NCBI GenBank assembly: GCA_021463515.1
Contig: JAJTYZ010000112.1
Coordinates: 1-64,000 of the forward strand
DNA from: Chthoniobacterales bacterium
GTDB lineage: Bacteria > Verrucomicrobiota > Verrucomicrobiia > Chthoniobacterales > JACTMZ01
Direction: 5' to 3'
Length of the DNA stretch: 64,000 nt
Under the pieces are notes generated by a model. That model made no database searches, had not been told where the DNA came from, and saw nothing but the letters and a program-made list of their open reading frames with translations. A program made the translations under genes and the position numbers. Every line of letters begins with the position of its first letter. Position 1 is the stretch's first letter. Of the stretch, positions 5,406 through 33,921 are shown one piece after another.

Positions 5406-6139
5406 GTTGTGACCTCCCTAAGCACCCGCCAAAATCCCTCCCGAATCTTCACCGGGTCAAAATCGCGTCTCCCTGCCTCTACAGCCCGCTTCGCCAGCCC
5501 AACCCTCAACTCTCCATCTGTCTTCAATCTTTGTAAGCACGCCACCAATTCCTCACGCGTGGTGCACGAAACCACCCCATTGGGGTAAAAATTGAGAAAT
5601 TCTAAAACGCTAAAACGTTGCAATAATCCAACCCTTTCAGCATTTCCATTTTTCAGCTTTTCAGTTTCTTCACCTTTCAGCTTTCCCTCCCCTGTCAACT
5701 GCCCACTGCCAACTGCCAACTCCTCTACCCCACGCCCATATCTCACTCCGGTAGCAAACTCCGGCCCCGACACCACCACGGGCATCCCCAGTCCCAAATA
5801 CTCCGTTAACTTACTTGGAAAATGCGTACGGTAAAGCATCTCATTATCTCCAGCAGGATTTGAATAAGGTAAAATCATCACATCCGCCCGTTCCTGCATC
5901 GTGCGCCACATTTCTAGGATATTCATACGATGCGGCATCCATTCCACAACATCCGTCGCCTCCAATAATCCCTTTAACTTATACGGCGGTCGCGGTGTCG
6001 AAGTCAAAACCTTAGCATTCACCTCCCGCAACACCGGAATCAACGCCATCAACGCTTCCCCATATCCATAAGCCACCGATCCTGCATATCCCAGCGTCAA
6101 AGTCCCCACCCCATTTCCAGTATTCTCCTCTTGCTTCAT
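5402..6139 (-). CDS. Glycosyltransferase, C-terminal half of a split gene; carries an in-frame repeat-derived insert
   Basis: LTLGYAGSVAYGYGEALMAL...FPSKLTEYLGLGMPVVVSGPEF; contains AVGSGQLTGEGKLKGEETEKLKNGNAERVG; same frame as 6215-6856. Confidence 0.75.
   Translation of the reverse strand: MKQEENTGNGVGTLTLGYAGSVAYGYGEALMALIPVLREVNAKVLTSTPRPPYKLKGLLEATDVVEWMPHRMNILEMWRTMQERADVMILPYSNPAGDNEMLYRTHFPSKLTEYLGLGMPVVVSGPEFATGVRYGRGVEELAVGSGQLTGEGKLKGEETEKLKNGNAERVGLLQRFSVLEFLNFYPNGVVSCTTREELVACLQRLKTDGELRVGLAKRAVEAGRRDFDPVKIREGFWRVLREVTT
5594..5727 (-). repeat. AGTTGGC-family heptamer array plus GCTGAAA/TTTTAGC module, inside a CDS
   Basis: Minus strand AGTTGGC AGTTGGC AGTGGGC AGTTGAC AGGGGAGGGAAAGCTGAAAGGTGAAGAAACTGAAAAGCTGAAAAATGGAAATGCTGAAAGGGTTGGATTATTGCAACGTTTTAGCGTTTTAG. 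Confidence 0.85.
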
Positions 6140-6140
6140 T

Positions 6141-6224
6141 TCAAAATTTTAGTCTTTCAGCCTCTCTCTGCCAACTGACTACTGATTCCTGCCAACTCCT
6201 CTCCTTCCAGCATTTTAGCCTTTC
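6141..6224 (-). repeat. AGTTGGC-family heptamer copy splitting a glycosyltransferase
   Basis: Minus strand GGCTAAAATGCTGGAAGGAGAGG AGTTGGC AGGAATC AGTAGTC AGTTGGC AGAGAGAGGCTGAAAGACTAAAATTTTG. Confidence 0.85.
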
Positions 6225-6856
6225 ATCATTGCAGCCCGAAGTACTCTCGACATTTCGGGCGAGCGTGGCTGCAAATCCTCACTCCGATTCGGATACATCA
6301 CCTCACCCCTCACACTATACCGATTCGCTAGATAATCTTCCATTTCCGGGCTCACGCACAATCTCCTTGCTGCTGCTCGATATACCCTTCGGTTTTGTTC
6401 AAATAATCCCCGCTTCGCCCAAGAAAAAACTTTCTCAAATTCCTCGTTAAGATCGTGGACAATCAATACAAGCGGTACACCTAATAATCGTGCTGTCCGT
6501 TCCGCCGTCAGAATCCATGGCGTGCTCACCATCACCGCAACAACAATCCTTGGTTTAAAACTTCCCAATAAACTCAAAATCCTTCGATGTGTTGGCAAAG
6601 GAATCAACCCTGTTGCCGCCCATGATCGCTTATACATGCTAAATCGGGTATTATCAAAGCGCGCCATCGGCATTTTTAACTCACAGTAAGAACACGGTAG
6701 CACCTTTGCCCCATGATCTGTAGGCGGTCCCATAACGCACAGCGAATCTATGGGATACTCCGAAAAAAGGTGATACAACAATATCGCGCCTGCGTTTCGC
6801 GTTTGAGGAACTTCACCAGAAAGAATGAGCACATACGGCTTAATCATTGTCGGCAT
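6215..6856 (-). CDS. Glycosyltransferase, N-terminal half of a split gene
   Basis: YVLILSGEVPQTRNAGAILLYHLFSEYP...PLVLIVHDLNEEFEKVFSWAKR...RLCVSPEMEDYLANRY; ends at a repeat-encoded TAA. Confidence 0.75.
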   Translation of the reverse strand: MPTMIKPYVLILSGEVPQTRNAGAILLYHLFSEYPIDSLCVMGPPTDHGAKVLPCSYCELKMPMARFDNTRFSMYKRSWAATGLIPLPTHRRILSLLGSFKPRIVVAVMVSTPWILTAERTARLLGVPLVLIVHDLNEEFEKVFSWAKRGLFEQNRRVYRAAARRLCVSPEMEDYLANRYSVRGEVMYPNRSEDLQPRSPEMSRVLRAAMMKG

Positions 6857-15060: not shown

Positions 15061-15140
15061 TTTAGCTTTCTTGTCCTCTCCTGCCGACGGCCAACTACCT
15101 ACTGTCAACTTCCCTGCTCAGTTTTTCGGCCTTTTCTCCC
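15061..15140 (-). repeat. AGTTGGC-family heptamer copy at a gene junction
   Basis: Minus strand AGTTGAC AGTAGGT AGTTGGC CGTCGGC AGGAGAGGACAAGAAAGCTAAAA. Confidence 0.8.
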
Positions 15141-16153
15141 AGTGCTGCAGCATAAGCTCCTAAGTCATGCTGACCGGCTCTAATCTCCCTTACAGCTTTC
15201 CACATGCCGCGCCTTCGTGACATTGTCATCTCCCATTCCAAACGCCTCAGTCGCCCCCTTCGCATAAAGGACATAATCCAGAATCGCCAATCGTTGCGCG
15301 GATGCAAGATGCGCCCATTCTCAACAAATCCATGCAATACAGTTGAATAGGCATTGGCCTCCGCATTTTTCAGCAAATATTCATCAGAGCAACGACCCAC
15401 AGGGATCAAATGATCCATCAACAACTTCTTAAATACACCCTTTCCATACCCTGATTGACACCCCACATAAGATAAGTCGGAATCTCCTCCGAAGCCAGCA
15501 CTTTTTGGAGTCGGATCTAGCAGCCGACGCATCGGATTATCCAAAACACGTTGTCGGTAAAGTTTTAAGGTCTCCCTCCGTGCACATAGTCCTGCTCCCC
15601 ATGGGGTGGAATCATGATGCTCAATCACATTGGACCAAATATCCTGTGTTAATTCACGCGCACACAAAGCACCCCGCAGCCAGGTATCAGGTGCCTTATC
15701 CGGCTCATCAAACTTTAGTAAAATTTGCCCACCCCAAGTTCCTAGGTGAGGGAAATCCCTAGAAATTTTGACAACCTCCTCAAGATAATCCGCCCGCAAA
15801 GCATTATCCTGATCCACAAAAACAAAGACATCTCCCTTCCCCAACTCAAACCCATACAGTCTGGAACTCACCAACCCAATCCCCTCCCGCTTCCGGTCCG
15901 TCTGCACAAGCCGCGCATTGGGATGCCATCCCAAATCCACAACCACCCTCCCTTCCTCCTCCCTCACCAACTCATCCCCTGCCCACTGCCCACTGCCAAC
16001 TGTCAACTTCTTCCTCGACGCATCATCAATAACGATCAGCTCCCATTGATCCTTAGGCAGCGTCTGACTCATAAGTGCCTCCAGCACAATCCCCAAATGC
16101 CGCACTCCAGGATTGCAGCAGGGCATGATAACGGAAATGAAGTTGGCAGACAT
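15095..16153 (-). CDS. Glycosyltransferase family 2 with in-frame repeat-derived insert
   Basis: ISVIMPCCNPGVRHLGIVLEALMSQTLPKDQWELIVIDDAS; insert KLTVGSGQWAGDELVREEEGRVVV precedes DLGWHPNARLV. Confidence 0.85.
   Translation of the reverse strand: MSANFISVIMPCCNPGVRHLGIVLEALMSQTLPKDQWELIVIDDASRKKLTVGSGQWAGDELVREEEGRVVVDLGWHPNARLVQTDRKREGIGLVSSRLYGFELGKGDVFVFVDQDNALRADYLEEVVKISRDFPHLGTWGGQILLKFDEPDKAPDTWLRGALCARELTQDIWSNVIEHHDSTPWGAGLCARRETLKLYRQRVLDNPMRRLLDPTPKSAGFGGDSDLSYVGCQSGYGKGVFKKLLMDHLIPVGRCSDEYLLKNAEANAYSTVLHGFVENGRILHPRNDWRFWIMSFMRRGRLRRLEWEMTMSRRRGMWKAVREIRAGQHDLGAYAAALGEKAEKLSREVDSR
15945..16010 (-). repeat. AGTTGGC-family heptamer copy inside a GT2 CDS
   Basis: Minus strand AGTTGAC AGTTGGC AGTGGGC AGTGGGC AGGGGATGAG. 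Confidence 0.8.
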
Positions 16154-16570
16154 CAGTAGTCAGTTGGCAGTTATTGCTTCAGTGAGCGTATCAAACCTTG
16201 GATCATGGCCGAAAGCTCACGACTATCGCTGATCCAGCGATCAGCAATAGAGTTTTCTAGCAAACCGGCTTTTACACCCACAGTTGCTTGTGTCCGAAAT
16301 TCCCCACATGAACCTCGAGCGTAATCAAGAAACTTCAAGCGATCGGGCAGCGATCTCCGCTCCATACCTTCAGCAATATTCGAGGGAATAGAAAGTGCCG
16401 AACGTGTTATCTGATCACGAAACCCGAAATCTACACACTTCGCAAGCTTTCTGTAAACGTTAGCACTCAGCTCTACGGAACGCTTCCAATCCTCCAAATC
16501 TTCAAAACCCGCCATATACAAATTTCCCCTAGTGACTGTCTGCTGCCCGCTGATTACTGCCTACTGCCCA
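16141..16570. mobile_element. Candidate element: four-helix-bundle gene between inverted AGTTGGC-family arrays
   Basis: Left arm (+) AGTTGGC AGACATC AGTAGTC AGTTGGC AGTTATT; right arm (reverse complement) AGTAGGC AGTAATC AGCGGGC AGCAGAC AGTCACT; gene 16171-16515 between. Confidence 0.7.
16171..16515 (-). CDS. Four-helix bundle protein (23S rRNA intervening-sequence protein family), intact
   Basis: FEDLEDWKRSVELSANVYRKL...FGFRDQITRSALSIPSNIAEGMER...FLDYARGSCGEFRTQ; ATG at 16515 (ORF extends to TTG 16521). Confidence 0.92.
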   Translation of the reverse strand: MAGFEDLEDWKRSVELSANVYRKLAKCVDFGFRDQITRSALSIPSNIAEGMERRSLPDRLKFLDYARGSCGEFRTQATVGVKAGLLENSIADRWISDSRELSAMIQGLIRSLKQ

Positions 16571-28604: not shown

Positions 28605-30203
28605 TTAGCTCACCCGGGAATTGTCCGTGAGCGTTTTCCAAATTGCCACAAGCAATCCGAGAATGCCTGCCAGCAGCATTCCCCATGCGGCCAACGCGAC
28701 AGCTCCTGCACGGACGCCAAATTGCGAGTAAACATGGAATGGCATGAAATTCACGCGCAGCAATCTCTCGGAAATCTCCGGCACCATGAGACGGCGTTCA
28801 CAAAATTCACCTCCCAGCATCGTGGCAAAATTCAGCCATCTCTGGCCCACAAGAAAGTATTCACGGCCCCATGCCGCCCATTGCACCTGCTCCAGGTTGC
28901 TCCAAAACAGGAGCGAGCCAATTTGGGCCGCAAGCGCATAGGCGGTCAAAATTCCACATGCGATTTTTGCCGTTTTTCCCATCCGGGGCCAAAGGTGCGC
29001 CATCAGGCCGAAGCCAAGCAGACCCAGCATGATGGCCGGCGTGGTTGTATAACGGCTGCCCCATCCTGACGCGCCGCCCGGCCACGGGTAGGGCGCGTAA
29101 AATGCAATCAATGTCAGCAATAATGCGAACAGGCAAAATCCAAGCGTTTTGATGTCCCTGGAGACGCGCCAAAAATAAAAAATCAACAACAGCGCAAAAA
29201 GCAAAATCCCCGGATCCATCCACAGGGCGGAGTCATAACCGGAAAACAGCAGCGTCCATACGCCCCGCCACCAATCGCCGCCAACGTAAAAATCCGGATT
29301 TTGCAACTGATGCGCCCCGATATAGGTGTTTGTGAACGACCCGAATCTCACCCACTGATATAAACGCTCTGCAACGACAAACAGCCCGAACACCGCGCCA
29401 AAAATTCCTGCGGCCTGAAGCCAGTTGCCGCGGCCCTTTGCCTTTCCATGCGCGTCACGGAATGCAAAAAGCAAAACCGCCATAAAAAGTCCCGCGAAGG
29501 CCGTTTCAAAGATGGTTGGGAGGCGAACCAGAAGCGCGAATCCCGCCGCTGCTCCCGCTCCGATCATATTGCCTAGGTGCCCGGTCAAGAACCATCGCAG
29601 ACAAAAAAGGAGGAGAGCCAAGAAACATAGGAGCGTAAGATTATTTTCCTGATTCACCTGCGTCCATTGCAGCAGTGTCGTTCCAAAAAGCATCCCAATC
29701 GTTCCCGTCGCCGCAGCCGTGGGTTGAAAATTCAACAACAGCAGTAAATGAAACCCAAACACCACGCACGCTGCGGTAATGAGTGGGAAAGTCGCATACA
29801 CAATGAACGCGTGTTTGATCCTACCTTTCACACTGGCCGGATCAGGCATTGTTTCTCCAAGAAGCAGCGAGCTGACCATATCCGCCGGGAACATCACCAG
29901 ACTCTGTCCTATTCCATACCACGCATGAATCACTCCATTGCGCCCGACAACGCCAAACTCAGGATAATCCCCGTCCCGAACCGGAGGCTCATCCGTCCAC
30001 AACGCGTGGGTGACCTGCAAGCGGCGCGAAGCATCTATCGAGCTGATATCTCCGTCCTCCACCGCAAACCCCGTCAGCAGAGCCATAAAAAATAATAAGA
30101 TCGTCAATCTCCTTTGAAGTCCTTTTATTTGTCCCCCTGTTCCAAACTCTGTTGGACATTGGGACAGTGATGCCATTAAACCCATGCCTGCTTTCCGCCT
30201 CAA
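28605..30203 (-). CDS. Polytopic membrane protein
   Basis: Multiple TM stretches; overlaps the upstream kinase gene by a few bp. Confidence 0.7.
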   Translation of the reverse strand: MRRKAGMGLMASLSQCPTEFGTGGQIKGLQRRLTILLFFMALLTGFAVEDGDISSIDASRRLQVTHALWTDEPPVRDGDYPEFGVVGRNGVIHAWYGIGQSLVMFPADMVSSLLLGETMPDPASVKGRIKHAFIVYATFPLITAACVVFGFHLLLLLNFQPTAAATGTIGMLFGTTLLQWTQVNQENNLTLLCFLALLLFCLRWFLTGHLGNMIGAGAAAGFALLVRLPTIFETAFAGLFMAVLLFAFRDAHGKAKGRGNWLQAAGIFGAVFGLFVVAERLYQWVRFGSFTNTYIGAHQLQNPDFYVGGDWWRGVWTLLFSGYDSALWMDPGILLFALLLIFYFWRVSRDIKTLGFCLFALLLTLIAFYAPYPWPGGASGWGSRYTTTPAIMLGLLGFGLMAHLWPRMGKTAKIACGILTAYALAAQIGSLLFWSNLEQVQWAAWGREYFLVGQRWLNFATMLGGEFCERRLMVPEISERLLRVNFMPFHVYSQFGVRAGAVALAAWGMLLAGILGLLVAIWKTLTDNSRVS

Positions 30204-31180
30204 TGCACAAAAATGATCCGACTCCCTTGCGGCGCAAAACGGAAAGGTGTTTCCTGTAAATTTCGGAGGGCTTGACGGACGGCAGATTGTTTATTTTGTG
30301 GGACAAGAAAAAGGAAAAAGCCACCACCACCTGCGCCCAGAATTTTTCCCCCAAGTGCTCCCGCAACACGTGCGGCATGGTAAGTGGCATTGATCGTCGG
30401 ATTTGAAATTCCCGCCGCCAAACTCTTTTTGAGGTGCCAACTTTCATCCATGGCCTCACCAAGCGTGTCCAAACGATTTGATTGTAAATCCTGTAACACA
30501 GCTTCGGCGCAAGCAACCATACGATCCATGGCCTTTATTTTGTCGCTCTCCTTAGTTAAAGTTTGCGATTGCTCTTTTAGAAGAGCCGATGCACTTCGTG
30601 TTACGCCTGTATAAAACAAGAGAAGCATAGATTGAAGCTCTTCCAATGTCTCTCGCTGACACAAAAGCTTCTGCACTTCCACCGTTTCATCAGCGTGAAA
30701 ACGGATAAAATTACTCCCCCCAAATGCTGCTGCATATTGGTCTTGCTTTCCGATAGGCTCACAACACCGTTCTATCTCTATCGCACAGGCTTCGGCTGCA
30801 AGACGTTCCGCAGAGGTATGGCGACCTTCATAAGCATGCAAGGCATTAAGCAACCCGACCGTGAATGCACTAGAACTTCCTAATCCGGTCCCTTGGGCCG
30901 GTATATCGGCCACCGAAGTGATTTCGATGCCCCCTCGAATTCCAAGCATATCTAATGCTTCGCGGACAATTGGATGTTGAACCTGTGATGCCTCACCCAC
31001 TTCCTCCATGCGAGAATAACTTACCCGCACCGCATCATCAAACTTCCGGCTCACTGTCACATAAACACATTTGTCAATAGTCGTTGAAAGAACCGCTCCG
31101 CCATTGCGCCGATAATAAGACGGCAAATCTGATCCTCCTCCCAGAAAACTAATGCGTAAAGGTGTTTGAGAAATGATCAT
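30200..31180 (-). CDS. hddA: GHMP kinase, D-glycero-D-manno-heptose 7-phosphate kinase-like
   Basis: MIISQTPLRISFLGGGSDLPSYYRRNGGAVLSTTIDKCVYV; PAQGTGLGSSSAFTVGLLNAL; GGKILGAGGGGFFLFL. Confidence 0.9.
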   Translation of the reverse strand: MIISQTPLRISFLGGGSDLPSYYRRNGGAVLSTTIDKCVYVTVSRKFDDAVRVSYSRMEEVGEASQVQHPIVREALDMLGIRGGIEITSVADIPAQGTGLGSSSAFTVGLLNALHAYEGRHTSAERLAAEACAIEIERCCEPIGKQDQYAAAFGGSNFIRFHADETVEVQKLLCQRETLEELQSMLLLFYTGVTRSASALLKEQSQTLTKESDKIKAMDRMVACAEAVLQDLQSNRLDTLGEAMDESWHLKKSLAAGISNPTINATYHAARVAGALGGKILGAGGGGFFLFLVPQNKQSAVRQALRNLQETPFRFAPQGSRIIFVH

Positions 31181-31182
31181 GG

Positions 31183-31661
31183 GGTTCTTGGTTCTTGGTT
31201 CTTGGTGCTTGGTGCTTGGTTTTTGAAAATTAATCGGCGTTGAGGAGGTATTTGATAAATCCTCCGATTTTTGCGTAAGTCAACCGGGCAAGCTCGTAGA
31301 GTTCTTCAAATTTGGATGGCGAGATATATTCCTGATCCAATGCGACATAAAGCTGACTCTGTACTTCGCTGCAGGAACGCTGGGCATAGCGGAGGAACTT
31401 GATAAACTCCGCCCTACTGCCACTATCAAACCCTTCGGCAATATTGTGCATAATGGAGCCGGCCGCCCTCGTGATCTAATCCCGCAAACCAAAGTCACGA
31501 CTAAATTTCTCCGAGGCAACAGCCGCATAAATTGAGCGCGTCAAGTTCCCTCGCCAATTTCCAAGCCTCAATCTCCTCGAACCGCGTAATTTTCATACCC
31601 ACCAAAAACCAAAAACCAAGAACCAGGAACCAAGCACTAAGAACCAGAACCAAGAACCAAA
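31183..31661. mobile_element. Candidate element: four-helix-bundle pseudogene between inverted GTTCTTG arrays
   Basis: Left arm (+) GTTCTTG GTTCTTG GTTCTTG GTGCTTG GTGCTTG GTTTTTG; right arm (reverse complement) GTTCTTG GTTCTG GTTCTTA GTGCTTG GTTCCTG GTTCTTG GTTTTTG GTTTTTG. Confidence 0.75.
31230..31596 (-). pseudogene. Four-helix bundle protein (23S rRNA IVS family), degraded: one frameshift and one in-frame TAG
   Basis: MKITRFEEIEAWKLAREL, then an apparent extra G, then TRSIYAAVASEKFSRDFGLRD(TAG)ITRAAGSIMHNIAEGFDSGSRAEFIKFLRYAQRSCSEVQSQLYVALDQEYIS; covers ORF fragments 31501-32091 (tail) and 31230-31451. Confidence 0.9.
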
Positions 31662-32953
31662 TCCACCGCTGCCCCGATATCCGCCACAACGTAATCCGGC
31701 TTGGCCTCGGGAAACTTTCCATCGCGCCCGCCCGCGCCCGTCCTAACGAGGATGGAACGCAATCCCCCACGCCGTGCCATTTCCATATCCACTGTGGTAT
31801 CTCCGACCATCCAAGAACGTGTGGGATCCAGCGCGAGGTCGCGGCAGGCTTGTTGAAGCATTCCCGTCGCGGGCTTACGACATTGGCAGGGACCTTTGAG
31901 TTCGGGACGCTCTCCGGGGAAACCATTGTCTGGGTGGTGCGGACAATAATAAATCGCATCCAGAAATGCTCCTTGCAGGCCCATCTCCCATTCCATCTTG
32001 CGGTGGATGGCAGCCACATCCTGCTCGGACGCTTCTCCACGGGCGATGACGGGCTGATTCGTGAGAACCACAAGCCGATAACCCGCTCCACGCAATTTTT
32101 TCAAGGCAGCCGCCACCCCCGGCAATAAGTCGAATTGCGCGGGCGTGCTGATAAAGCCGTTTTCTGCATTAAGCGTTCCATCACGATCCAGGAAAACCGC
32201 GGATTCACGATAGGCGTCATCGCGTAAATGAATACGGCCTTCCTGCCAATCGCGATGAACCTTCTCCAATCGCTCAGGAGTGCCCATGTCCTTAATGTAC
32301 TCGGTTGAGTTATAGGCTTCGATATGCCCACCGGCGGCAAGCAAGGCGGGCAAAACATCCTTGGCGAAGTCACGCTTGACGACCTCCCTGCTCCACGGAA
32401 GCAGAACGTCACGACGTATGACATAAAGTGCCGCATTGACGAGGTTGGCGAAGTATGGCCCTTGAGGATGAGGATAAGGATGCAGTGCGGTAACGCGCCC
32501 ATCCGTATCCGCCTCGACCAAATCGGAATCCTGCGGATGATCATTAGGATGAACAAAAGTGGTAAGATCGGCTCCTTGTGCGAGGTGCCTTCGTACAAAG
32601 CGCCCAAGGTCCACGGCCAACATGGTGTCGCCATAAAGAACGAGAAAATGCTCGGGCAGGGAATTCAACCGCTGAAGAACCGCTCCGGCACTTCCCAGCG
32701 GCTGCTCTTCGACGTCTACCGTCACCCGCAAATTAAAACGCGAGCCATCGCCTGTGAACTTGCGAATTTGATTAGCTAGGTGCCCTGCAAAAATCCGTAC
32801 ATCGTTAATGCCGTAGGCGGCAAGGAGATCGAGTTGATGTTCTAAAACCGGCTTCCCTCCGATCGAAACCAAAGCCTTCGGAATATCTCCCACAACCGCT
32901 GTGAGCCGCGTTCCCTTCCCTCCCGCTAAAATGGCCGCTGTATCAACCTTCAT
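31637..32953 (-). CDS. Fusion: heptose-1-phosphate guanylyltransferase-like (HddC) + heptose-1,7-bisphosphate phosphatase-like (GmhB)
   Basis: N-terminal AAILAGGKGTRLTAVVGDIPKALVSIGGKPVLEHQL; C-terminal AVFLDRDGTLNAENGFISTPAQF...MVGDTTVDMEMA; last residues LGSGS* are repeat-encoded. Confidence 0.9.
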   Translation of the reverse strand: MKVDTAAILAGGKGTRLTAVVGDIPKALVSIGGKPVLEHQLDLLAAYGINDVRIFAGHLANQIRKFTGDGSRFNLRVTVDVEEQPLGSAGAVLQRLNSLPEHFLVLYGDTMLAVDLGRFVRRHLAQGADLTTFVHPNDHPQDSDLVEADTDGRVTALHPYPHPQGPYFANLVNAALYVIRRDVLLPWSREVVKRDFAKDVLPALLAAGGHIEAYNSTEYIKDMGTPERLEKVHRDWQEGRIHLRDDAYRESAVFLDRDGTLNAENGFISTPAQFDLLPGVAAALKKLRGAGYRLVVLTNQPVIARGEASEQDVAAIHRKMEWEMGLQGAFLDAIYYCPHHPDNGFPGERPELKGPCQCRKPATGMLQQACRDLALDPTRSWMVGDTTVDMEMARRGGLRSILVRTGAGGRDGKFPEAKPDYVVADIGAAVDLVLGSGS

Positions 32954-32955
32954 GC

Positions 32956-33921
32956 TCACAATCCTTGCTCGCACGCCATTTCATCTATAGCGCGAATCGC
33001 CGCCTCATCGGATGTTATGCGAGGAGTCCATCCAAGCCGCTTCAGCTTTTTCGTGCTATAAGAAAACCTCGGAACATCCCCCACCCACCCACGGTCCCCT
33101 CCGGTGTAAGCAATAGACGTCCCCGGTGCTACGCGGGCGATACTTTGTTCCGCAAGAAAACGCACGAACGTCCCCTCACCGCGTGGACCGATGTTGAAGA
33201 CATTCCGCCTGTCGGTCGTGTGGGCCACGATGAACTGCATGGCATCCATCAACTCGCTCACATGCAGATAAGGTTTGCACTGGGTTCCATCCCCCAGCAC
33301 ACGCAATGTCCCCGGGTACGCCGTAAGGCGTTTCACGAAGTCATAAATTGCCCCATGTGTGGCGCGAGGCCCAATCACGTTGGGAAAGCGAAATATCCAC
33401 ACGTTTTCAAGGAAACTCTCTACCGCAGCACTCAGCAATGCCTCACTCGCCAGCTTAGTTGCGCCATAATTAGAAATGGGGAGCAAAGGCCCGCTCTCCT
33501 CTTCAAGAATATCCTCCCGCTCGCCATACACCGCTGATGTGGAAGCGAACGCTATCCGCCGCACGCCCACTTCCCGTGCTGCCTCCAATGTCCCATAGGT
33601 CGTTCCTAGCGTCCTCTTAAAGTCCACTGTCAAATCCGCAACACCCGCCAAAATATCGCTGTTCGCCGCCAGATGCCACACGAAATCAACCACTCCATGC
33701 GCTTGGACAGCTCGAGCAAAAGAATCCTTCGCAGCATCTGGATTACTCACATCAGCCTCCACGAAGTGAAATCGTGACTCCTTCCTCGCGGACGCCAAAT
33801 GCCCCTCCGTTCCAAGCGAAAAATCATCCACCCCGCTCACGAAATGCCCCTCCGCAAGCAGGCGATCCGCAAGCTGGCTGCCGATAAACCCGGCCACACC
33901 AGTAATAAAATGATGAGCCAT
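32956..33921 (-). CDS. NAD-dependent epimerase/dehydratase
   Basis: MAHHFITGVAGFIGSQLADRLLAEGHFVSGVDDFSLG; FASTSAVYGE; YGATKLASE; start chosen at 33921 rather than ORF start 33978. Confidence 0.9.
   Translation of the reverse strand: MAHHFITGVAGFIGSQLADRLLAEGHFVSGVDDFSLGTEGHLASARKESRFHFVEADVSNPDAAKDSFARAVQAHGVVDFVWHLAANSDILAGVADLTVDFKRTLGTTYGTLEAAREVGVRRIAFASTSAVYGEREDILEEESGPLLPISNYGATKLASEALLSAAVESFLENVWIFRFPNVIGPRATHGAIYDFVKRLTAYPGTLRVLGDGTQCKPYLHVSELMDAMQFIVAHTTDRRNVFNIGPRGEGTFVRFLAEQSIARVAPGTSIAYTGGDRGWVGDVPRFSYSTKKLKRLGWTPRITSDEAAIRAIDEMACEQGL

Follow-up and report, generated by a model that had tools for sequence, protein, structure and literature searches.

The locus at 31183-31660 of the window, the 64,000-nucleotide stretch of a Chthoniobacterales contig that was analysed here, is probably a decayed copy of a small selfish mobile element of ~450-550 bp, whose four-helix-bundle (4HB) protein would bind the repeat arrays at both ends of the element. 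TRF detects a period of 7 at 31183-31225 (6.1 copies, 91% match) and again at 31601-31660 (8.7 copies, 83% match), and these two arrays are mutually inverted (word GGTTCTT/AAGAACC) and bracket a 4HB pseudogene. The element is read on the minus strand, where the 5' arm (31604-31658, coding strand G-rich) comprises eight GGTTCTT-type units, from 31658 down to 31604 GGTTCTT, GGTTCT, GGTTCTT, AGTGCTT, GGTTCCT, GGTTCTT, GGTTTTT and GGTTTTT, followed by GGTGGGTATG with the ATG of the pseudogene at 31596-31594. The pseudogene itself (31230-31596; S23/23S_rRNA_IVP, TIGR02436) is disrupted by a frameshift between frames 0 and 1, located approximately at 31543-31553, and by an in-frame TAG at 31476-31478, which is evident from the frame reading together with the profile match. 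Its family membership is nevertheless clear from two profiles whose cut-offs are both exceeded, PF05635 at 31284-31547 (89 bits, curated cut-off 33.8, 3.4e-25) and TIGR02436 for the intact 3' part (62 bits, cut-off 24, 4.1e-17). After the 4HB frame and its stop, the 3' arm (31183-31224, minus strand, coding strand C/A-rich) runs from 31224 to 31183 as AAAAACC, twice AAGCACC and three times AAGAACC and stops 2 bp short of the downstream gene's ATG. The element thereby sits between two genes of one operon, all three being located on the minus strand: an upstream nucleotidyltransferase-HAD fusion (31637-32974), whose last codons and stop codon (31637-31639) lie within the 5' array, and a downstream GHMP-type kinase (30200-31180), whose start adjoins the 3' arm. 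The pseudogene is the sole gene between the arms, and neither a transposase nor a recombinase nor a reverse transcriptase was found inside the element. An earlier note on this DNA had described a 4HB gene flanked by inverted arrays of a 7-bp word and had suggested that each element lineage has its own word. Both points stand, the first by the TRF arrays with the PF05635 match between them, but the note had missed that the gene is a pseudogene, that words of 6 and 8 bp exist as well, and that the elements are placed within operons on the sense strand.

The same genome harbors further loci of this kind. The note had attributed the same architecture to a second locus of the window, which is true for the inverted arms around a 4HB gene, whereas the word of this sister element (16141-16569) is only AGTNNNC-like and far more degenerate than that of the element at 31183-31660; the anatomical match is looser for this reason. 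On the minus strand, the sister locus has an intact 4HB gene with profile matches (16171-16521), a 5' arm of degenerate heptads (TGACTGT..CTACTGCCC; 16533-16569) that overlaps the stop of an epimerase gene, and a 3' arm with the degenerate heptads AGTTGGC AGACATC AGTAGTC AGTTGGC AGTTATT (16141-16175). A third element of this genome (L001, word GTTGAGA) is located between sdhA- and sdhB-like genes. In addition, a CTGCCCA/CTGCCAA heptad array at 15979-16008, 174 bp from the sister 4HB locus, lies inside a glycosyltransferase ORF (15095-16153, minus strand) as an in-frame insertion (KKLTVGSGQWAGDELV). Short arrays with differing words side by side (CTAAAACG twice, TTTCAGC-like, ACTGCCA) are clustered at 5600-5730 and 6150-6230 of the window, as if later elements insert beside older arrays.

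Period-7 arrays clearly exceed chance. In 348 kb of the source genome, for which genome-wide counts combine this sample with pattern searches, eight period-7 arrays were found at the score used, whereas local shuffles of the same sequence gave none, and the other periods from 4 to 13 gave at most one each; period 14, the double of 7, gives two. Five of the eight arrays have one of three 4HB genes at most 350 bp away. The survey was extended to 139 4HB loci, taken partly from relatives and partly from named genomes that span many phyla (Verrucomicrobia, Planctomycetes, Bacteroidetes, Spirochaetes, Acidobacteria, Patescibacteria and others), where period-7 arrays occur at 31 upstream and 41 downstream sides, compared to 1.3% of random control stretches. 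Periods 8 (15 upstream, 15 downstream) and 6 (4 and 4) are enriched at these loci as well, while periods 4, 5 and 9-13 are not. The possibility raised in the earlier note, that arrays are equally frequent near random genes, can be dismissed, since arrays are present at 36-43% of the 4HB flanks, but at only 8-9% of the flanks of other genes of the same loci (Fisher p ~3e-16). The flanks are complementary to each other in 148 of 188 4HB loci, and a stricter cut-off is passed by 70% of the 188 loci versus 1.7% of mismatched flank pairs. All eight cyanobacterial plasmid loci with a 4HB gene that were retrieved have arrays with the same anatomy, and a tblastn search revealed no phage relatives. On the Pseudanabaena plasmid pPg_01 (L223), AGCTAAA arrays occur in several spacers of a type I-D cas operon, in which cas6 and cas4 are separated by a 4HB gene. 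The array-gene-array elements appear as a very widespread family of mobile DNA, which has apparently not been recognised before.

The arrays and the 4HB gene form one unit and descend together. Both arms carry the same word in inverted orientation in 40 of 45 two-armed loci, compared to 7.1% of cross-locus pairs. Moreover, the word follows the protein: it is shared by 59% of pairs with 60-80% identity of their 4HB proteins, by 24% at 50-60%, by 4% at 40-50% and by about 1% below 35%, and this correlation was reached by none of 2000 permutations, so that the predicted co-variation of word and protein clade is confirmed. The closest 4HB protein found to that of the window element, with 70% identity, comes from a genome of another family (L031) and is also accompanied by GGTTCTT. 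Within a set of 57 related genomes, only the source genome (G000) and G032, which are the genomes with this 4HB protein lineage, have GGTTCTT arrays in larger numbers. Genome G044 contains two copies that are 89% identical over gene and arrays, and because their flanks are unrelated, these copies set the limits of the mobile unit. At one conserved insertion site of a gammaproteobacterial family, the similarity of arms is higher within an element (0.84) than between elements (0.76; p = 0.0024), and therefore the arms evolve in concert. The co-variation of word and protein follows from joint inheritance alone and is no proof of binding. A universal GTTNA-like core motif for all words was apparent with all loci, but was not significant once related proteins were removed.

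Concerning its location, the element occupies the short spacer between co-directional genes in sense direction. According to ORF-based gene calls, 4HB genes between co-directional neighbours have the same direction in 101 cases and the opposite one in 5, and the coding strand is G-rich in 52 of 58 arms after an upstream gene and C-rich in 61 of 71 arms before a downstream gene. Orthologous operon junctions either hold the unit, hold it in decayed form or lack it cleanly. The junction that holds the window element has no element in the same-genus genome G009, where the upstream orthologue has its own C-terminus and no array, while G003 has a solo AGTCGAA array and G005 a gene-less inverted pair with a different word at this position. 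The sdhA-sdhB junction was compared in 11 genomes: four are filled, one of them by a 4HB gene that is interrupted by a stop, only remnants are left in three, and four are empty with a spacer of 2-8 bp, two of the latter being nested among filled ones. This pattern fits either gain and clean loss or repeated gain, and it is possible that the empty sites reflect deletions restored by selection. No target-site duplication of at least 4 bp was seen by eye at the sdhAB site, where the array ends are fuzzy, and no insertion difference was seen between near-identical strains. In three of these junctions (L227, L228 and L234 of G006, G007 and G005, respectively) a palindromic repeat, TTTGTAGCGGCGGTC...GACCGCCGCTACAA, has taken the place of a portion of the 4HB element; this repeat has the appearance of a separate REP/MITE family.

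Beside complete elements, the genomes contain dozens of gene-less hairpins and solo arms at other sites that are built from the same words. The search for arrays lacking a gene, as proposed in the earlier note, yielded the same words again, mainly arranged as inverted pairs or as solo arms. GTTGAG-type arrays reach up to 38 per genome within the genus, and a manual count over the listed rows gave 14 close array pairs, all convergent and none divergent, which form short hairpins. The arms of these hairpins (L297-L310) share the word, but their interiors are unrelated between sites with the exception of one orthologous pair, which would not result from simple copying or internal deletion of one master element. 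G009 has 38 GTTGAG sites, yet its listed 4HB genes all fall outside that lineage, and therefore copies can persist after the gene is gone or spread independently of it. In a phage-like-looking cluster of the source genome (L311; G000:C23:2300-3800), successive junctions have solo AACCAAG arrays, the word of the window element, right before the start codon. A solo ACTGAAA array, close to the TAACTGA of the Beggiatoaceae, is located right before the start codon in the spacer that separates leuC- and leuD-like genes (L194:5132-5169).

On this reading, the unit opens on its 5' side with an array whose word measures 6, 7 or 8 bp, continues with the gene of a pentameric 4HB protein of the S23/Avd kind and closes with the same word, now inverted, as its 3' array. 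The 4HB protein probably recognises its arrays, presumably by binding its own word at both ends, with probably one subunit per unit, and the bound protein would mark the DNA, gene-less derivatives included, for copying or joining by a host enzyme. After insertion, the gene would decay, and the arms would persist and stay alike; the intervening sequences (IVS) of 23S rRNA that carry an S23 gene would be those members of the family whose insertion site was in rRNA. Avd is known to bind nucleic acid as well as a reverse transcriptase, and the TRAP ring binds RNA triplets with one unit per subunit. A TRAP-like ring with one unit per subunit would explain both the tandem words and their clade-specific spacing. 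Whether the protein would go as far as to direct the spread is more doubtful, and we put forward only tentatively that the family may be mobile DNA without a recombinase of its own, in which the pentameric 4HB protein reads the 6-8 bp tandem word of its lineage and guides the spread of whole units, gene-less hairpins and solo arrays into operon junctions in sense direction.

The preponderance of sense insertions (101 vs. 5) would also be expected if the element acted on the RNA level like a 23S IVS, so that the arms form a stem in the operon mRNA that RNase III cleaves, with selection maintaining this stem and the insertion thereby remaining harmless. The predicted fold of the window element is indeed strong (-182.7 kcal/mol, z = -5.1), and the IVS of Coxiella burnetii, which is 428 nt long, has heptamers beside the start codon of its S23 gene as well as a 28-bp terminal stem, and this IVS is cut by RNase III (PMC4990558). 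However, if selection acted on the transcript, G-U mismatches in the stem should be preferred to A-C ones, and the arms have 164 mismatches of the G-U type and 180 of the A-C type (by locus 38 vs. 59); therefore, the wobble statistics do not support the view that the conserved function is that of an RNA hairpin. As solo arms without a partner are common as well, we regard this explanation as rather unlikely. A little less likely still is that the arrays have grown in place, by slippage or templated synthesis at hairpin ends with the 4HB protein and a polymerase, so that it is mainly the word that spreads, whether or not its arms enclose a gene. This would account for the gene-less hairpins with shared word and unrelated interiors, for the concerted evolution of the arms of one element, and for the successive junctions in G000:C23 that each carry a solo array of the window element's word, but copies that share gene and arrays show that whole units also move.

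A purely host-encoded function seems improbable. If the 4HB gene were an ordinary host gene and the arrays control sites bound by the protein in its own mRNA or promoter, arrays on both sides of many 4HB genes that follow protein descent could be understood, but not the presence or absence at orthologous junctions, the decay of genes with the arms being kept, the inverted orientation of the arms, or the large number of unrelated genes at which these arrays recur. Solo arrays, some of them beside 4HB loci, might finally suggest that slippage-prone heptamer microsatellites came first and were merely a target for insertion of the 4HB gene. Such a split target would leave direct and not inverted halves, though, and both the empty sites without arrays and the G044 copies, which share arrays but not flanks, are opposed to it, so that this explanation is very improbable.

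Reading the locus as a copy of a mobile element also has a bearing on heptamer repeats that have been reported without an origin. Such orphan repeats are GGGAATC of Xanthomonas and GGGGA(C/T)T of Nostoc (PMC4692102) and TAACTGA of Beggiatoaceae (PMC4679880); those of Xanthomonas are reported to form often inverted pairs with a strand polarity relative to the neighbouring genes (PMC4692102). Quadruplex or regulatory roles have been proposed for them, in passages that make no link to a 4HB gene (PMC4692102, PMC4679880). The prediction that GGGAATC flanks 4HB genes held. A search in a sample of the class that holds the Dactylopiibacterium locus led to one genome, G424, and then to the 4HB genes of its family, which we infer to be the Xanthomonadaceae: at 16 of 22 4HB loci the gene is adjoined by 7-bp arrays, and several of these read GGGAATC or a near variant of it. 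The orphan Xanthomonas heptamer is thus the word of one 4HB element lineage. A TAACTGA-like word likewise flanks the 4HB gene in L148.

The elements thereby join three puzzles, namely the purpose of the S23/4HB proteins, which are annotated in very many genomes of bacteria, the origin of over-represented 7-bp repeats, and the presence of the gene in cas and other operons. Genes for 4HB proteins inside such operons have been read as functionally linked (PMC3936711, PMC10053308). If they belong to a mobile element, gene-neighbourhood inferences drawn from them need correction, and the pairs of protein and word would offer a natural series of matched recognition sites to study. If recombinase-free elements that read a word do exist, many unexplained heptamer repeats of bacteria would be accounted for, and the 23S IVS would be a special case.

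Among known systems, the 23S rRNA IVS are closest. They resemble the elements in size, in the 4HB/S23 gene, which is often decaying, in the terminal inverted repeats and in the heptamers at the start codon, and they are regarded as selfish (PMC4990558); the element described here likewise has terminal inverted repeats around an S23 gene. In contrast to the IVS, the elements are located in operon spacers, both of their arms are tandem arrays of a lineage-specific word, and gene-less derivatives are abundant. Insertion into 23S rRNA, the location that defines the IVS, is not seen here: none of the loci compared with E. coli 23S by blastn gave a match, and the neighbours of the window element are protein-coding. 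We conclude that the elements are kin to the 23S rRNA IVS outside of rRNA, although there is a real chance that they are a kind of their own. The second relative is Avd of the diversity-generating retroelements, which is described as a 4HB homolog with the same fold (PMC10053308). The likeness is confined to this fold and a weak profile match, since three intact 4HB proteins reach 25-33 bits with the Avd profile NF033474, far under its cut-off of 80 bits, and neither a reverse transcriptase nor a template or variable repeat was seen beside the window element. The solved relative of the 4HB protein is XCC0516 (2gsc, E = 3.4e-34), an assembly of five four-helix bundles according to the title of Lin et al. 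(2006), cited in PMC3936711. Earlier work places PF05635 genes within cas loci (PMC3936711) and close to retroelements (PMC10053308), in passages without mention of arrays, and a search of openly accessible journal papers found none that links 4HB genes to repeat arrays. REPINs and MITEs are also small intergenic inverted-repeat elements that are mobilised in trans. They differ in that the arms here are arrays of a 6-8 bp word, that the partner is a 4HB protein and no known transposase, and that interiors are not shared; within the element, the units are non-palindromic, and no Y1 (HUH) RAYT gene is present. Finally, the window-type elements agree with the definition of heptameric repeats (PMC4692102), being 7-bp tandem intergenic units that often form inverted pairs. 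The orphan heptamers and the cyanobacterial STRR are likewise intergenic 7-bp tandem units, and those of Xanthomonas share the inverted pairs and the same strand polarity as well; unlike in their published descriptions, in the parts concerned with these repeats, where a 4HB gene does not appear, GGGAATC here flanks 4HB genes.
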